From Actinomycetes bacterium (lineage in GTDB: Bacteria > Actinomycetota > Acidimicrobiia > Acidimicrobiales > Microtrichaceae): 64,000 nucleotides of DNA. Numbering within the stretch: the stretch's first letter is position 1; each line of letters begins with the position of its first letter. The DNA lies in NCBI GenBank assembly GCA_024222295.1, contig JAAEPF010000017.1, forward strand, positions 1 through 64,000. The letters are read 5' to 3'. Positions 885 through 7,447 of this stretch are shown here, piece after piece. Below the pieces are notes generated by a model. That model was not told where the DNA came from. It made no database searches and saw only the letters and a program-made list of their open reading frames with translations. The translations under genes and the position numbers were made by a program.

Positions 885-1205
885 GTGGCATCAGCACAGA
901 AGATCCGGATCCGGCTCAAGGCCTACGACCATGAGGTCATCGACCAGTCCACCAAGAAGATCGTCGAGACGGTCAACCGCACCCAGGCCAACGTCCGCGG
1001 CCCGGTGCCCCTGCCGACCGAGAAGCACCGCTTCACCGTCATCCGAGGCCCGTTCAAGGACAAGGACTCCCGCGAGCACTTCGAGATGCGCATCCACAAG
1101 CGCCTCATCGACATCGTTGACCCCAACCCCAAGACCGTCGATTCGCTGCAGCGCCTCGACCTCCCCGCGGGCGTCGACATCGAGATCAAGATCCAGGACG
1201 CCTAG
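885..1205 (+). CDS. rpsJ: 30S ribosomal protein S10
   Basis: A 106-aa protein with the S10 signature [16 protein letters not shown] at the start, [15 protein letters not shown] in the middle and the terminal [16 protein letters not shown] 885 is chosen by homology and by a GAGAGAGAA purine run about 12 nt upstream. S10 is a 30S head protein and, as NusE, a partner in antitermination. It is normally followed directly by rplC; here rplC lies 5.6 kb away beyond the hyp genes, so rpsJ is split from its operon. Confidence 0.97.
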
Positions 1206-1248
1206 TCAGCGCTGGCAAGGTCCGCGTCGCCGCCAGGCGACGGGCCAG

Positions 1249-1323
1249 GCGACTGCTTGTTTGACTTCAGTCGCCCAGCTGCCCCATACGCGCCCGCCGA
1301 CTGAACAACCGTCGAGCAGTCGT
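1249..1323 (+). repeat. Hyp-flanking dyad element, copy A
   Basis: A ~75-nt element beginning 44 nt after the rpsJ stop. It contains GCGACTG and CAGTCGC arms (1249-1255 / 1268-1274) and a second pair (GACTG 1299-1303 / CAGTC 1318-1322). The outermost arms can also pair with each other (CGACTGCT with AGCAGTCG). About 52-55 of 75 positions match copy B at 6387-6460, on the other side of the hyp block. The core CCAGCTGCCC is identical. Confidence 0.65.
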
Positions 1324-1365
1324 CAGGCGCGACGCTGACGCCGACGCCGTCCAGCGGCGCGGGGG

Positions 1366-1371
1366 TACTGT
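1366..1371 (+). promoter_or_regulatory. -10 box for leaderless hypF
   Basis: TACTGT lies 8 nt before GTG 1380, placing the transcription start at or next to the start codon. No good -35 hexamer is visible. Confidence 0.4.
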
Positions 1372-1379
1372 CACGCCTG

Positions 1380-3845
1380 GTGGTAGCTACCCGGGCTGAC
1401 GACGAACACGCGCTCGGCGAAAGCGCGCCCGGGCTGGTCGACTCGGCTGAGCGGATCGTCGTGACCGGAGTGGTGCAGGGCGTCGGATTCCGGCCCTTCG
1501 TGCACCACCTCGCCAACGAGCTCGGCCTGAGCGGGCATGTTGGCAACGACTCGGCCGGTGTGTTCATCGTTGCGGCGGGCCGCCGGCCGGCTCTCGACGA
1601 GTTCGCCGAACGGCTGGCCAACGAGGCGCCGCCGCTTGCGTACGTGGACCGGATCGAGCGCACGACCGTCGCTTCACCGCCCAGCGGAGTGCCGGAGTCC
1701 GCCGCCGCATCGAGCGGTGACTTCTCAATCGTCGGCAGCGCTCCGACGGCCGCTCCCGGCGCACAGGTGCCTGCAGACACAGCAGTATGCGCGGACTGCC
1801 TGGCAGAGATGCGTGACCCACAAGACCGTCGACACGGCCACCCCTTCATCACCTGTACCAACTGCGGGCCGCGGTTCACCATCGTCGAGGCGCTGCCCTA
1901 TGACCGGCCGGCTACGACGATGGCCGACTTCGCCATGTGCGATCGCTGCGCGTCCGAGTACGCAAGCCCGGCTGACCGCCGCCACCACGCCCAGCCGATC
2001 TGTTGCCCCGACTGCGGCCCACGGCTCGCCTTCGAGAACCACACCGGCGATGGCCAGCCGGGAGGTGGGCAGTCAACCCGGTGTCAGAGCGCGCTCGATT
2101 CAGCTATCGGGGCGCTGAGCGGCGGGCTGATAGTGGCGGTGAAGGGACTGGGCGGGTACCACCTCGCAGTCGACGCGACCGATCCGGCCGCGGTGGACCG
2201 ACTGCGGAGGCGCAAACACCGCCCCGACAAGCCGCTCGCCGTGATGGTCGCCGACCTCGAAGCGGCCGATCGACTCGCACACCTGGGCGATGCAGAACAC
2301 CGACTGGTCACCTCGGCCGCGCGCCCGATAGTGCTGGCACCCGCCAGGCGTTCGAGCGAGCTTGCCGATCCTGTGCAACAAGGCAGTCCGGTGGTGGGCC
2401 TGATGCTGCCTTACACGCCGGTGCATCACCTGCTGTTCGACGCGGGGCTGCCGCCACTCGTGATGACATCGGCCAATGTGTCGGGCGAACCGCTCGCCCA
2501 CACCGACGGCCAGCTCCAACCGCTGCTCGGAACGGTTGCCGACGCGGCACTCACCCACGACCGACCGGTCGCATCACCGTGTGACGACTCTGTGGTGCGC
2601 GTTGTCAGCACTGCTGGGGACGGTGGCGGAAGCAACACCTTGTTGCCGGTGCGGCGGGCGCGCGGGTACGTGCCGTTGCCGGTGAGGCTCCCCGGGTCGC
2701 GACGGAGTGTGCTCGCCACGGGCGGCGAGTTGAAGAACGCCTTCTGCCTCGCGTCGGCCGACGGCCCGAGCGGCCCCGGCCAGGCGTGGATTGGCCCCCA
2801 CGTAGGTGACATGGGGTCGCTTCGCACGCTCGAGGCATTCGAGGCGGGGATCGGCCGGTTCGCAGAGATGTACGACGTCGACGTCGAGTGCGTCGCGACA
2901 GACCGCCATCGCGGCTACACCATCAACCGTTGGGCCCACCGAACCGCTCTGCCCGTATTGGAGGTGCAGCACCACCACGCCCACGTTGCGTCGGTGATGG
3001 CCGAACACGGACTCCCCCCCGATGTGCCTGTGCTCGGATTCGCCTTCGACGGCACTGGATACGGCACCGACGGCACGATCTGGGGCGGGGAGGTGCTGTT
3101 GGCGGACGCACATGGCTTCGAGCGCCTCGCTCACCTGGCGGAGGTGCCGATGCCGGGAGGCGATGCGGCGATCACGTCGCCATGGCGAGCGGCACTGGCG
3201 CACCTGCAGGCGGCGGGCATCGAATGGTCGGAGGCGCTGGCGCCGGTTGAGGCGGCGGGGGAGCAACTGGCATTGCTGGCCGACCAGGTCGAGTCGGGCC
3301 TCGGGTGCGTCGGCACCACCAGCATGGGCCGGTTGTTCGACGCGGTCGCGTCGCTGCTCGGCCTGCGCCACGAGATCACCTACGAGGCCCAGGCCGCCAT
3401 CGAGCTGGAGAGCGCTGCGCTGTCCAACACGGACGCGCCGGCCAGCTATGCGTTCTCTGTCTCCGGCTCGACCATCGAGGCCGCACCCGTGGTGGAGGGC
3501 GTTGTGGCCGACGTTCTCGACGGTCGGCCCGTCCCCGGGATCGCGGCCGGGTTCCATGAGGCGGTCGCCCAGCTCGTGGTTGACCTGGCTGACGGCGACG
3601 ACGACCGGAACCGTCCGGTCGCGTTGACCGGAGGAGTGTTCCAGAACGCGTCGCTGGTGGCCGGCGCCCGGTCGAAGCTCGTGCGGTCGGGCCACAAAGT
3701 GCTGACCAACTCGATCGTGCCACCGAATGACGGCGGGCTCGCCCTCGGGCAGGCGTACATTGCGTGCCATGGCAACGTGGCGAGTGCGACCGAGGCGACC
3801 TGTGGTGACACAGTCGTGACCAGCGCCGGCGCGGCAGGGACCTGA
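1380..3845 (+). CDS. hypF: Carbamoyltransferase HypF (hydrogenase maturation)
   Basis: HypF uses carbamoyl phosphate and ATP to make a thiocarboxamide on the HypE C-terminal cysteine, the source of the CN ligands of the [NiFe] site. The 821 aa show an acylphosphatase domain (~24-110, motif VQGVGFRPFVHH) and four CxxC zinc-finger pairs (first at C137/C140, last CCPDCG at ~210). A YrdC-like domain (~235-420) and a Kae1-like C-terminal domain with the HHHAH metal motif at ~535 follow. The protein is slightly longer than usual (~750-770 aa). GTG 1380 is preferred because TACTGT lies 8 nt upstream; a start nearer the acylphosphatase domain (e.g. ~1461) is possible. First gene of the hypFCDE block. 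Confidence 0.93.
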   Translation: MVATRADDEHALGESAPGLVDSAERIVVTGVVQGVGFRPFVHHLANELGLSGHVGNDSAGVFIVAAGRRPALDEFAERLANEAPPLAYVDRIERTTVASPPSGVPESAAASSGDFSIVGSAPTAAPGAQVPADTAVCADCLAEMRDPQDRRHGHPFITCTNCGPRFTIVEALPYDRPATTMADFAMCDRCASEYASPADRRHHAQPICCPDCGPRLAFENHTGDGQPGGGQSTRCQSALDSAIGALSGGLIVAVKGLGGYHLAVDATDPAAVDRLRRRKHRPDKPLAVMVADLEAADRLAHLGDAEHRLVTSAARPIVLAPARRSSELADPVQQGSPVVGLMLPYTPVHHLLFDAGLPPLVMTSANVSGEPLAHTDGQLQPLLGTVADAALTHDRPVASPCDDSVVRVVSTAGDGGGSNTLLPVRRARGYVPLPVRLPGSRRSVLATGGELKNAFCLASADGPSGPGQAWIGPHVGDMGSLRTLEAFEAGIGRFAEMYDVDVECVATDRHRGYTINRWAHRTALPVLEVQHHHAHVASVMAEHGLPPDVPVLGFAFDGTGYGTDGTIWGGEVLLADAHGFERLAHLAEVPMPGGDAAITSPWRAALAHLQAAGIEWSEALAPVEAAGEQLALLADQVESGLGCVGTTSMGRLFDAVASLLGLRHEITYEAQAAIELESAALSNTDAPASYAFSVSGSTIEAAPVVEGVVADVLDGRPVPGIAAGFHEAVAQLVVDLADGDDDRNRPVALTGGVFQNASLVAGARSKLVRSGHKVLTNSIVPPNDGGLALGQAYIACHGNVASATEATCGDTVVTSAGAAGT

Positions 3846-3846
3846 C

Positions 3847-4134
3847 GTGTGCCTCGCGATCCCCGGAAGGGTCACAGACGTGCGCACCGACAACGGGGTG
3901 CTCATGGCCACCGTCGACTTCGACGGTGTCACCAAGGATGTTTGCCTCGAATACGTGCCCGAGGTGGCGGTTGCCGACTACGTGATCGTGCATGTGGGCT
4001 TCGCCATCTCGCGACTCGACGAGGAGTCCGCCCTCGAAACCCTGGCCATGATCCGCGAGATGGGCGTGCTCGAAGAGGAGCTCGGGGTATCGGACGATCG
4101 GCAGGCGGCTGGCGCGGAGTCCGAAAGCTCGTGA
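3847..4134 (+). CDS. hypC: Hydrogenase maturation chaperone HypC
   Basis: A 95-aa protein starting MCLAIPGRV; the cysteine right after the initiator Met is the conserved residue that binds the Fe(CN)2CO precursor and HypD. The GTG start lies one base after the hypF stop, so translation is probably coupled. The body ([17 protein letters not shown], then [15 protein letters not shown]) matches the HypC/HupF family. The last ~20 residues are an Ala/Ser/Glu-rich tail. It works with HypD as the scaffold on which the iron-diatomic ligand complex is built. Confidence 0.95.
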
Positions 4135-5237
4135 AGTACCTCGACGAGTTCCGCGACCCCGAACTCGCCCGTTCGCTGCTGGCCGAGGTCGAGGCGACCG
4201 TGACCCGTCCGTGGTCGATCATGGAGGTCTGCGGCGGCCAGACGCACTCGATCATCCGCAACGGCATTGACCAGGTGCTCGATGACCGCATCACCCTGTT
4301 GCATGGCCCCGGCTGCCCCGTGTGCGTGACTCCGCTGGGAATCATCGACAGCGCACTGGAGATCGCAGCGCGCCCGGAAGTGGTCTTCTGTTCTTTCGGC
4401 GACATGCTCCGGGTGCCGGGCAGCGACTGCGACCTGTTCTCCGTGAAGGCTCGCGGCGCCGACGTGCGGGTCGTCTACTCGCCCCTGGATGCGGTGCAGG
4501 TCGCGGCCGACAATCCGGACCGCGAAGTTGTGTTCTTCGCGGTGGGCTTCGAGACGACTGCCCCGGCCAACGCGATGTCGGTTCACATGGCACGCAAGCG
4601 GGGACTCACCAATTACACGGTGCTGGTCAGCCACGTACTCGTGCCACCCGCGATCGAGGCGATCGTGGAGTCCGAGGCCAGCCGTGTCGACGGCTTCCTG
4701 GCCGCCGGTCACGTGTGCTCGGTGATGGGAACTGGTCAGTACGAGCCATTGGCGGAGGAGCACGGCGTGCCCGTGGTGATCACGGGCTTCGAGCCACTCG
4801 ACATCCTCGACGGCATCCGCCGCACTGTGGCGCAGCTGGAGGCGGGGGAGGCCCGGGTGGAGAACGCCTACCCGCGGGTGGTCACATCACAGGGCAACCA
4901 GTCGGCGCAGGACATGCTGGCTGAGGTGTTCACGGAATGTGACCGGTCTTGGAGGGGAATCGGCGAGATCCCCTCCAGCGGCTGGCGCCTGGCCGATGAG
5001 TACCGTGCTTTCGATGCCGAGTTGCGTTTCGGCGTGGGCGACACGGCCGTGCCGGAGCCGGAGCGTTGCCGAAGCGGCGAGGTGCTCCAGGGCTTGATCC
5101 GCCCCGATGAGTGCGAGGCCTTCGGCAGGGACTGCACCCCGCGCTCCCCGCTGGGCGCAACCATGGTGTCGAGCGAGGGCGCGTGTGCCGCATACCACCA
5201 GTACCGCCGACTCGACGGTGTGGCGGTCTCCCCGTGA
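4131..5237 (+). CDS. hypD: Hydrogenase maturation Fe-S protein HypD
   Basis: A 368-aa protein, the normal HypD length. Visible motifs are [10 protein letters not shown] near the N-terminus, [23 protein letters not shown] and a C-terminal cysteine cluster ([26 protein letters not shown]) that holds the [4Fe-4S] cluster and thiol pair. GTG 4131 overlaps the hypC stop by 4 nt (GTGA); the frame is open further upstream but only inside hypC. HypD with HypC assembles Fe(CN)2CO using cyanide handed over by HypE. Confidence 0.95.
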
Positions 5238-5268
5238 TCCCCGCCCGCGATCACGCCCGGTACCGCAG

Positions 5269-6333
5269 ATGATCGATCCGGTCGACCCGGCGGCATGGGT
5301 GTGCCCGCTGCCGCTTCGCAACCACGACAGGATCGTGACCGGACATGGCGGGGGTGGGCAGATGTCAGGCGAACTCGTCGAGCACATCTTCCTGCCGGCG
5401 TTCGGCAGGTCTGCCGTAGCCGGCCTGCATGACTCCGCCACGATGGACCCTCCGGTCGATGGCGGGAGACTGGCCTTCAGTACTGACAGCTTCGTGGTGA
5501 GTCCGTTGTTCTTTGCCGGCGGTGACATCGGACGACTCGCGGTCAACGGCACGGTCAACGACCTCGCCATGAGCGGAGCGAGGCCGCTTGCGCTCAGCGC
5601 AGCTTTCATTCTGGGTGAGGGCCTGGAACTGGCGGTGCTTGCCGCGGTGGCCGAGTCGATGGGTCGCGCCGCACAGACGGCGGGCGTCAAGGTCGCTACC
5701 GGTGACACCAAGGTGGTGGAGTCCGCCGGTGACGAGGTCCTCTACATCAACTCTTCCGGCATCGGGGTCGTGCCGCCCAAGGTGGACATCCGGCCCGGCC
5801 GCGCAGCAGCCGGGGACGCCGTGCTGCTGAGTGGCCCCATCGGCGAGCACGGCATTGCGGTGATGTCCCAACGTTCCGGCCTCGAGTTCGGAACCGGTGT
5901 GCAGAGCGATACGGCTCCCCTTGCGGGGATGGTCGCGTCGATGCTCGGTGCCTGCGCCGACATCCACGTGCTGCGCGATCCGACCCGCGGCGGCCTGGCA
6001 GGGGCGCTGTGTGAGATCGCGGCCGGCGCCGGTGTCGGCATCGAGTTCGACGAGGACTCGGTGCCGGTTCCCGATGAGGTCGCGGCCGCGTGTGCGTTTC
6101 TCGGGCTCGACCCCACACATGTCGCCAACGAGGGCAAGCTCGTCGCCATCGTTCCCGCGGATGCCGCGGATGAGGTGCTCGCAGCGATGCGGTCGCAGCC
6201 CGAAGGCGAGGGGGCGGTGAGAATCGGCCATGTCGTGGCTGACCACCCGGGCGTGGTGGCTGCGTACACCCCCCTGGGCGCCCTGCGCGTGGTCGACCAA
6301 CCCCTGGGCGAGCAGCTACCCCGCATCTGCTGA
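5269..6333 (+). CDS. hypE: Carbamoyl dehydratase HypE
   Basis: A 354-aa member of the PurM/ThiL-like ATP-binding fold. It dehydrates the thiocarboxamide placed on its own C-terminal cysteine by HypF to a thiocyanate. The essential C-terminal tetrapeptide PRIC is intact. The N-terminal part carries GHGGGGQMSGELVEH, then FSTDSFVVSPLFF and NGTVNDLAMSGARPLA; RDPTRGGLAG follows later. ATG 5269 lies 31 nt after the hypD stop and gives a typical N-terminus; the open frame upstream overlaps hypD. Last gene of the hyp block; hypA and hypB are not in the window. Confidence 0.95.
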   Translation: MIDPVDPAAWVCPLPLRNHDRIVTGHGGGGQMSGELVEHIFLPAFGRSAVAGLHDSATMDPPVDGGRLAFSTDSFVVSPLFFAGGDIGRLAVNGTVNDLAMSGARPLALSAAFILGEGLELAVLAAVAESMGRAAQTAGVKVATGDTKVVESAGDEVLYINSSGIGVVPPKVDIRPGRAAAGDAVLLSGPIGEHGIAVMSQRSGLEFGTGVQSDTAPLAGMVASMLGACADIHVLRDPTRGGLAGALCEIAAGAGVGIEFDEDSVPVPDEVAAACAFLGLDPTHVANEGKLVAIVPADAADEVLAAMRSQPEGEGAVRIGHVVADHPGVVAAYTPLGALRVVDQPLGEQLPRIC

Positions 6334-6386
6334 CCTCGGCGCCTGCCCGACCTGTGGCCCCGGACTTGGCCACAGCGGCGCGCCAT

Positions 6387-6460
6387 GCGACTGTTTGTTC
6401 TTCTCCAGTCGGCCAGCTGCCCTATGCGCGACTGGTGACTGCAGTGCAGGAAGCAGTCGT
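6387..6460 (+). repeat. Hyp-flanking dyad element, copy B
   Basis: This element begins 54 nt after the hypE stop and mirrors copy A at 1249-1323. The arms are CGACTG 6388-6393 / CAGTCG 6406-6411 and GACTGC 6437-6442 / GCAGTC 6453-6458. The outer arms CGACTGTTT and AAGCAGTCG can pair over 9 bp with one G-U. Several differences from copy A keep pairing, for example a GC to GU change. Confidence 0.65.
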
Positions 6461-6499
6461 GTGGCGCGGCGGCAGGCCTGCCGGAAGCCGGGCCGGAAT

Positions 6500-6521
6500 C
6501 CCCATTTGGCCTCAAATGGGG
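6500..6521 (+). promoter_or_regulatory. Inverted repeat overlapping the rplC promoter
   Basis: A perfect 8-bp palindrome, CCCCATTT (6500-6507) and AAATGGGG (6514-6521) with a 6-nt centre, covers the -35 hexamer and half of the spacer. Its position suits a protein operator; the binding factor is unknown. Confidence 0.4.
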
Positions 6522-6534
6522 CCACTGGTAGAGT
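6506..6534 (+). promoter_or_regulatory. Promoter for the rplC-led ribosomal operon
   Basis: TTGGCC (6506-6511) and TAGAGT (6529-6534) are separated by 17 bp. It lies downstream of the hyp genes and copy B and about 260 nt before rplC, so the main operon seems to have its own promoter. The layout resembles the infA promoter at 18250 (TTGCCC-17-TAGAGT). Confidence 0.55.
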
Positions 6535-6790
6535 CGATGAGTCGCCTGAACGCATCCGCGCTCAGGATCAGTCCGAAGCTCCACCCCCGAGGCCCGACAC
6601 AGAGTCGGTGACCGAGGTGGAGGACCACCGTGCAACCGACGTCCACCGAGGCCCGCGCAAGCGGGAACCGGGTGGCAAAACCGAATCGTCGCTCCGCCGG
6701 GCCTGCCCGAGCGGAGCGTTTGCGTGAAGTGGGCCGAACTCCCCGGAGCCAGGCCAGCGAAGCGCTGGGATTGTCGAGAAGGACAAGCCG
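6535..6790 (+). promoter_or_regulatory. rplC: Long structured leader upstream of rplC
   Basis: About 250 nt without a gene. It contains pairing arms CTCCACC (6579-6585) / GGTGGAG (6616-6622). A strong hairpin lies at 6690-6718, with stem CGCTCCGC / GCGGAGCG, an inner CGGG / CCCG pair and a short T-run at 6719-6721. This hairpin, ~70 nt before the ATG, looks like an attenuator. The GAGAAGGA ribosome-binding site is at about 6776-6783. In E. coli the S10 leader is the target of L4 control; a parallel here is inference. Confidence 0.45.
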
Positions 6791-7447
6791 ATGGCGAGCA
6801 AAGCAATCGTTGGAGAAAAACTCGGGATGACCCAGGTCTGGGACGACGACAACAAGGTCGTGCCCGTGACCGTGCTTCGGGTCGCACCCGCACGGATCGT
6901 CCAGGTTCGCACCCCTGAGCGCGACGGCTACAGCGCCGTTCAGGTCACGTGGGGCAACAAGGACGCCCGCAAGCTGCCTCAGGGCCTCGCGGGGCATTAC
7001 GAGGCTGCGGGTGTCGAGCCCGGCGTGAAGCTCGTGGAGCTGCGCCTGGACGACACCGGGGAGTACGAGGTCGGCCAGGAGATCGCGGCCGACACCTTCG
7101 AGCCGGGTGACGCAATCGATGTCACCGCAGTCTCGAAGGGCAAGGGCTTCGCAGGCACGATGAAGCGCCATGGCTTCTCGGGTCAGCCCGCCTCCCACGG
7201 CGCACACCGCGTGCACCGCAAGCCCGGCGCGATCGGCCAGTGCGCCACGCCGTCGAGGGTCTTCAAGGGAGTCCGCATGGCGGGCCGCATGGGTGGCACC
7301 AAGGTGACCACCCTCAACCTCGAGGTCGTGCGCAGCGACCCCGACCAGCAGGTCGTGCTGGTCAAGGGTGCCGTTCCCGGCCCCAAGGGCGGCGTGGTCG
7401 TCGTCCGCAATGCCATCAAGGGTTCCAGCCAGGAAGGTGACAGCTGA
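6791..7447 (+). CDS. rplC: 50S ribosomal protein L3
   Basis: A 218-aa protein starting [16 protein letters not shown], with [22 protein letters not shown] and MAGRMGG in the C-terminal half, all diagnostic for bacterial L3. L3 binds 23S rRNA early and reaches the peptidyl-transferase centre. It is the first gene of the continuous ribosomal operon after the hyp insertion, preceded by a GAGAAGGA ribosome-binding site. Its stop overlaps the rplD start by one base (TGATG). Confidence 0.98.

Follow-up and report, generated by a model that had tools for sequence, protein, structure and literature searches.

A six-copy palindromic repeat at gene ends in a Microtrichaceae genome and its two copies around the hyp genes between rpsJ and rplC

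A stretch of 64,000 nucleotides (nt) from an Actinomycetes bacterium of the Microtrichaceae (GCA_024222295.1, contig JAAEPF010000017.1, positions 1–64,000, forward strand; hereafter, the window) carries two similar palindromic elements, copies A and B, on either side of a block of hydrogenase-maturation (hyp) genes located between the ribosomal protein genes rpsJ and rplC. We consider with moderate confidence that the two belong to an old, dispersed palindromic repeat with six copies in the genome, of a kind resembling REPINs (hairpin-forming doublets of repetitive extragenic palindromic (REP) sequences) and miniature inverted-repeat transposable elements (MITEs), whose hairpins now lie at transcript ends. 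Such repeats are a known kind, and a function at transcript ends is plausible but unproven; the six-copy repeat is a modest, largely ordinary finding.

Copies of the repeat and their genomic positions

A preliminary description of the window had named two imperfect dyad elements of similar sequence, and both their coordinates and their likeness were borne out. Across the span given there, 55 of 75 alignment columns (MAFFT) are identical, and the Smith-Waterman score of 89 compares with a mean of 18.8 and a maximum of 35 in 2000 dinucleotide-shuffled pairs; the likeness is far beyond chance. The homology outruns the original limits and ends at 1241–1331 and 6379–6468, giving nested palindromes of ~91 nt with sharp edges (the 30-nt flanks have ~30% mean identity across the six copies). 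Over the full element, 67 of 90 columns are identical between A and B (74%), which is not higher than between B and E (68/89, 76%). The two arm pairs claimed for both copies are all exact in A, and the core CCAGCTGCCC is common to A and B, but the third arm of B reads TGACTG.

The preliminary description had proposed a covariance-model search of the genome and its relatives. A model built from A and B was run over the genome (a 3.76 Mb draft in 115 contigs, 97% complete) with all 27 first-look candidates scored, and it revealed four further copies beside other genes, making a family of six:

1241..1331, plus strand: copy A, a nested palindrome with the arms CGACTG/CAGTCG twice around the core CCAGCTGCCC
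6379..6468, plus strand: copy B, the same kind of repeat as copy A
C2:267395-267484, minus strand: copy C, 42.5 bits with the two-copy model
C2:238933-239023, minus strand: copy D, 37.8 bits with the two-copy model
C34:102028-102118, plus strand: copy E, 36.3 bits with the two-copy model
C91:55918-56008, minus strand: copy F, 28.6 bits with the two-copy model

By the reasoning of that proposal, copies after other genes point to a REP-like or terminator family rather than to an insertion scar. Copies C, D and E score well above the relatives (36.3–42.5 bits, whereas the highest score listed for the same model in 118 other genomes is 21 bits), and the membership of copy F is further supported by its lying between the ends of two genes. 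A model of all six sequences, with 150 of 1968 first-look candidates scored, found these six loci again, plus a single additional place in the genome (17.4 bits, E 8.3).

All six copies lie 6–45 nt from a stop codon, three of them in convergent spacers and none in a divergent one. Copy A starts 35 nt past the rpsJ stop and copy B 45 nt past that of hypE. Copy C has a P450 and a Peptidase_M15 gene converging on it, with their stops 19 and 22 nt away; copy D, 28 kb from C, is separated by 22 nt from a GGDEF/EAL gene's stop codon and faces an opposite-strand tRNA-Glu gene. Copy E runs antisense to a glycosyl hydrolase family 3 gene whose stop is 10 nt away, and on its other side has an open frame without Pfam match. 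Copy F lies 6 nt from the aconitase stop and overlaps the final 20 nt of a HAD-acyltransferase gene that converges on it. Stem-loops in general are described as favouring convergent spacers and the 50 bp past stop codons (PMC1590033), so a position near stops is not specific and is no proof of function.

No convincing copy was found in the relatives' genomes searched, all from outside the source genus. The two-copy model with stricter filters matched in 2 of 118 other genomes (E 0.72 and 0.9; E-values are per genome). Matches were found in 2 of 32 other genomes of the family (E 0.56 and 0.77) and, across 394 further genomes of the class, in five (E 0.01–0.09, stricter filters), the class search being weak evidence of absence with 10 first-look candidates scored per genome. 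These matches, with E from 0.01 to 0.9, were taken as chance, the five from the class after reading by eye; one of these (L162) resembles protein-coding sequence. BLAST of copy A against 60 relatives gave short pieces only (E 0.001 or weaker), and distant-mode searches with copy A in phages and copy B in plasmids gave no match. None of the titles listed by literature searches describes this repeat, and we make no wider claim.

The core pattern is exact in A and B only, and with up to three mismatches it occurs at 99 + 113 places in the genome, against 103 + 135 for the reversed control. A pattern scan of genome_contigs, in which records of the genome itself were possibly left out, returned 31 loci (about the chance number by our arithmetic) and one of viral_contigs three more, with a best model score over all 34 loci of 22 bits (default filters). 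Near-matches to the arm pattern GCGCCACNCGACTGYTCG number 60 + 51 in the genome, against 24 + 21 for the reversed control (111 vs 45); 21 of these places, scanned with the full-length model, yielded no copy (best 15.3 bits). Among the matches listed for the arm pattern no larger element with the same ends was recognised, six loci outside the family having been inspected by eye, and no single unit was recognised at the 21 scanned places, for which the full-length model is insensitive. Directly beside copy C, at L042 (G000:C2:267484-267501), there is an additional left arm of 18 nt, imperfect with 3 mismatches to the arm pattern, which looks like a partial tandem duplication.

Conservation, folding and pairing

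The repeat consists of two inverted units of ~36 nt around a short core, each with a CGACTG...CAGTCG hairpin, and can fold as one long hairpin or two. The alternative long-range pairing of the outer arms that had been suggested for A and B is possible; the halves are decayed in C–F: compared half against half, A gives 28/41 and B 27/39, and C–F 21–25 of 39–44. Mean pairwise identity across the six copies is 0.71–0.84 in the arms and inner stems and 0.70 in the whole core (0.92 in CAGCTGCCC), compared with 0.28–0.47 in loops and gaps, and the longest run of invariant columns is CAGCTGCC (8 columns; column permutation p = 0.0068). Arms exceed loops in identity in 14 of 15 copy pairs (p < 0.05; the exception is D–F, p = 0.2), with loops still half alike in A–B (12/24) and B–E (14/24). 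At columns where A and B agree, C–F agree with them in 163 of 213 arm, 94 of 114 core and 25 of 73 loop comparisons, so the contrast of arms and loops is not only a matter of ascertainment. Terminal inverted repeats (CGCGCC...GGCGCG) are present, imperfect in some copies. By eye, GCGG directly flanks copy B on both sides, with nothing comparable at the other copies.

As RNA, the spans originally described fold at -31 (A) and -32.4 kcal/mol (B), with z of -4.98 and -2.81 and 0 of 200 shuffles as good in each case; wider spans give z = -2.91 for A (115 nt, 4/200 shuffles as good) and -3.81 for B (114 nt, 0/200). The other copies fold at z = -1.92 (C), -1.85 (D), -0.20 (E) and -1.18 (F), those of E and F being little or no better than shuffles. 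The earlier remark that several differences keep pairing holds for A versus B, where one is both-sided and three are one-sided, but across the six copies such changes are no commoner than in shuffles. None of the five covariation measures stands out from the shuffles, of which 167 to 271 in 500 score as high, and no compensatory changes were seen among the six sequences, a set of limited power. The stem cells are paired in 86.1% of cases, against 85.6% in partner shuffles and 27.5–51.5% in slid versions, and paired cells equal to the shuffled expectation are as expected for decay. On these alignments, we read the pattern as one of sequence recognition and decay, not of selection for pairing.

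GC-rich sequence comes after the stems of A and B, with no T-run of the kind looked for in an intrinsic terminator, and a terminator scan flagged only a short stem at 1246–1259, inside A. No Rfam family matched the window at gathering scores; with E allowed up to 1, the loci of A, C, D, E and F yielded only two tRNAs, beside D. The stretch 6334–6800 with copy B gave a single sub-threshold microRNA match (6687–6751), outside B. Near the start of the window, at about 178–204, a GC-rich hairpin likewise without a T-run follows the first gene (tuf, named by eye), which suggests that U-less hairpins are usual at gene ends in this genome.

Relationship to known repeats and alternative explanations

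REPINs are described as inverted REP doublets (PMC3116915), and the repeat shares with that description two inverted palindromic units with a spacer, a fold as one long or two hairpins, an extragenic location and conserved units; it differs in having six copies only, units of ~36 nt with loops of about 10–13 nt, no single units found and no match to a Y1 transposase. Like the GTAG/CGTC REPs as described in PMC3733652, it comprises extragenic palindromes in head-to-head dimers downstream of genes, but it has no conserved GTAG or CGTC tag, loop sizes unlike those of the CGTC type and far fewer copies than most families there. It resembles ERIC/IRU and RU-3 as repeats of about 100–130 bp with long stem-loops in spacers (PMC2229807, where RU-3 is described as partly conserved and probably no longer mobile), a likeness of description, and it has no conserved TA ends. 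An integron attC site was rejected as well: the core-site motif GTTRRRY was not seen at the element ends, although no formal search was made. The inverted doublet able to form one long hairpin is as in REPs and REPINs, and the terminal inverted repeats are as in MITEs. The repeat is not a REP proper, given that no conserved tag, Y1 transposase or single units were found. The REP-like element that had been proposed is thus supported as to its dispersed, extragenic, nested palindromes, while those three features were not found.

The preferred reading, an old REPIN/MITE-like repeat, would run as follows. The arms and core may have been held constant by a binding protein, a transposase being the candidate, while the family was mobile, with insertions tolerated at gene 3' ends and the copies later decaying in place. 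Their hairpins would now stand where the rpsJ and hypFCDE transcripts end and may help to terminate or protect these mRNAs, and the bracketing of hyp would reflect two separate units, rpsJ and hypFCDE, each with a copy at its 3' end.

Several observations weigh against this reading. By eye, the flanks of the six copies hold no consistent target-site duplication, and their alignment holds no conserved GTAG or CGTC tag (CGTC stands beside the 3' arm in copy A only). No two of the six copies are near-identical, although such copies could be lost from a draft in 115 contigs. The Y1 (RAYT-type) transposase family PF01797, the sole transposase family searched, has no match in the genome (0/1) and matches in 5 of 14 control genomes. 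The ~2.5-fold excess of arm-pattern matches is accounted for only in part by the six copies and is otherwise unexplained. Copy F is the weakest member at 28.6 bits, and the five class matches, rescored with the six-copy model, reach 24.8–29.2 bits beside it. We infer the function at transcript ends from position only.

A rather unlikely alternative is that the repeat works in place at gene 3' ends, as a hairpin that is recognised by a protein, terminates or stabilises mRNAs and is kept by selection at all six sites. The position of all six copies beside stops, three in convergent spacers and none in divergent ones, agrees with this, as do the conserved arms and core with unconserved loops and the pairing of the stems far above slid versions. 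The 140 nt past rpsJ also fold at z <= -2 in 16 of 29 relatives (60 shuffles each; -2.2 in the source genome), a stretch that in short-spacer genomes includes sequence just upstream of rplC. Against it stand the absence of compensatory changes, the weak folding of C–F, the missing T-run after A and B, the antisense orientation of E, the unspecific nature of gene-end positions (PMC1590033) and the failure to find a copy in two relatives (G001 and G016) despite their 95–96% identical RpsJ. The terminating or stabilising RNA considered in the preliminary description thus keeps the support of position and loses that of covariation, a T-run and firm folding in E and F. We regard as unlikely a related idea in which the six elements form a lineage-specific, protein-recognised 3'-end module, a nested palindrome kept in place with its arms and core constrained and its loops free, that marks and insulates the transcript ends of unrelated genes. 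If a protein were shown to recognise them, the repeats would be a further small palindromic family in whose genome no Y1-transposase partner was found.

It is very unlikely, in our judgement, that the A–B pair mobilised or recombined the hyp block into the rpsJ–rplC spacer, in the manner of the TIME-COMP composites described in PMC4133298, in which two miniature elements bracket cargo genes. Two of six copies lie within 5.1 kb around the block, whereas 15 pairs in 3.76 Mb give 0.04 expected by our arithmetic; bracketing by chance is somewhat unlikely, so mobilisation is kept as a rival. Three relatives (G001, G016 and G024) have no HypD match, and the spacer of G001 and G016 contains a 2OG-Fe(II) oxygenase gene instead. 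Against this, A and B are no more alike than B and E, C and D likewise lie 28 kb apart, and the relatives' spacers hold other genes without a repeat copy in the scanned stretches. By eye, no clear target duplication surrounds A–hyp–B; a shared CAGGC 2–4 nt outside both ends is not convincing. Compared with TIME-COMP as described, no 5-bp target duplication was recognised, the element is much shorter and the copies are 26% diverged. The earlier suggestion that a repeat mediated the insertion of hyp is not supported, with four copies away from hyp, A and B not clearly the nearest pair and no convincing duplication. Finally, a chance similarity of unrelated hairpins is exceedingly improbable. Hairpins are common at high G+C, low-scoring model matches are frequent, and the best of the 394 class genomes (29.2 bits, six-copy model) comes near copy F (28.6 bits, two-copy model), but for A and B the idea is contradicted by their score of 89 against at most 35 in shuffles, and C, D and E reach 36.3–42.5 bits against 21 in the 118 genomes.

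The rpsJ–rplC spacer and a covarying leader of rplC

The genes and other features around the two copies in the window are:

885..1205, plus strand: rpsJ (ribosomal protein S10; Pfam PF00338, start codon inferred)
1380..3845, plus strand: hypF (Pfam HypF domains, start codon inferred)
3847..4134, plus strand: hypC (PF01455)
4131..5237, plus strand: hypD (PF01924)
5269..6333, plus strand: hypE (PF00586/PF02769; named from its AIRS domains and its place after hypD)
6505..6534, plus strand: promoter-like motif TTTGGC-N18-TAGAGT before rplC, an inferred promoter
6639..6725, plus strand: structured leader with covariation upstream of rplC, separate from the repeat
6791..7447, plus strand: rplC (ribosomal protein L3; PF00297)

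The promoter-like motif has a close counterpart in G001 and G016, and a similar motif was seen by eye in several relatives' spacers; a sigma-70 consensus scan found no promoter-like site before rplC. Probably, then, rplC is transcribed from a promoter of its own, with rpsJ and hypFCDE as separate units. Matches to rpsJ were found in 53 relatives and the loci of 29 were examined. The rpsJ–rplC gap is <=400 nt in 19 and 1.4–5.7 kb in nine, and G058 has no rplC in the roughly 7 kb fetched after rpsJ, so that the spacer is 1.4 kb or longer in 10 of the 29. Pfam names genes in six of the nine longer spacers: the 2OG-Fe(II) oxygenase gene in G001 and G016, a GGDEF/EAL protein in G007, an aminotransferase and a HAD hydrolase in G055, a PGA_cap protein in G054 and an AI-2E transporter in G044. 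The genes in those of G004, G015 and G017 were not identified by Pfam, and in G058 rpsJ is followed by GYF-domain and GGDEF/EAL proteins. The spacer probably separates two transcription units and, judged from these gene contents, would be a cargo spot between them (1206–6790 in the window). This weakens the impression that a special repeat brought the hyp genes into a ribosomal operon: the spacer looks like a boundary of transcription units that holds various genes in several relatives, and the repeats belong to a small genome-wide family.

The leader of rplC is a better candidate for follow-up than the repeats. About 87 nt long, it was aligned in 22 sequences (its own and 21 from relatives in the family and order), chosen from loci matched by BLAST with the own leader and leaving out second loci of the same genome and eight matches (L094, L098-L102, L104, L108). 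Paired cells make up 96.4% (90.5% in shuffles), cells changed on both sides number 35 (13.1) and the covariation score is 0.206 (0.097); none of 500 shuffles, which do not control for relatedness, reaches any of these values, and slid controls are low (covariation 0.041–0.082). Rfam gave no match at E up to 0.5 in the leader loci of four relatives, and the sub-threshold microRNA match mentioned above is the single one in the own leader stretch. Table 1 of PMC7247131 lists an rplC-operon leader from Archaeoglobi. We regard the element as a candidate ribosomal-protein leader.

HypD was detected in 14 of 61 genomes, the source genome included. Within the family (33 genomes), it was found only in the source genome, in G007 and as a fragment in G011; G001, G016 and G024 (of which G024 is 55% complete), the genomes from the genus closest to that of the source, gave no match. 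A match to the NiFe hydrogenase large subunit lies at G000:C34:315132-316319 (L181, L182), on a contig other than that of hyp, and is a possible client of the hyp block.

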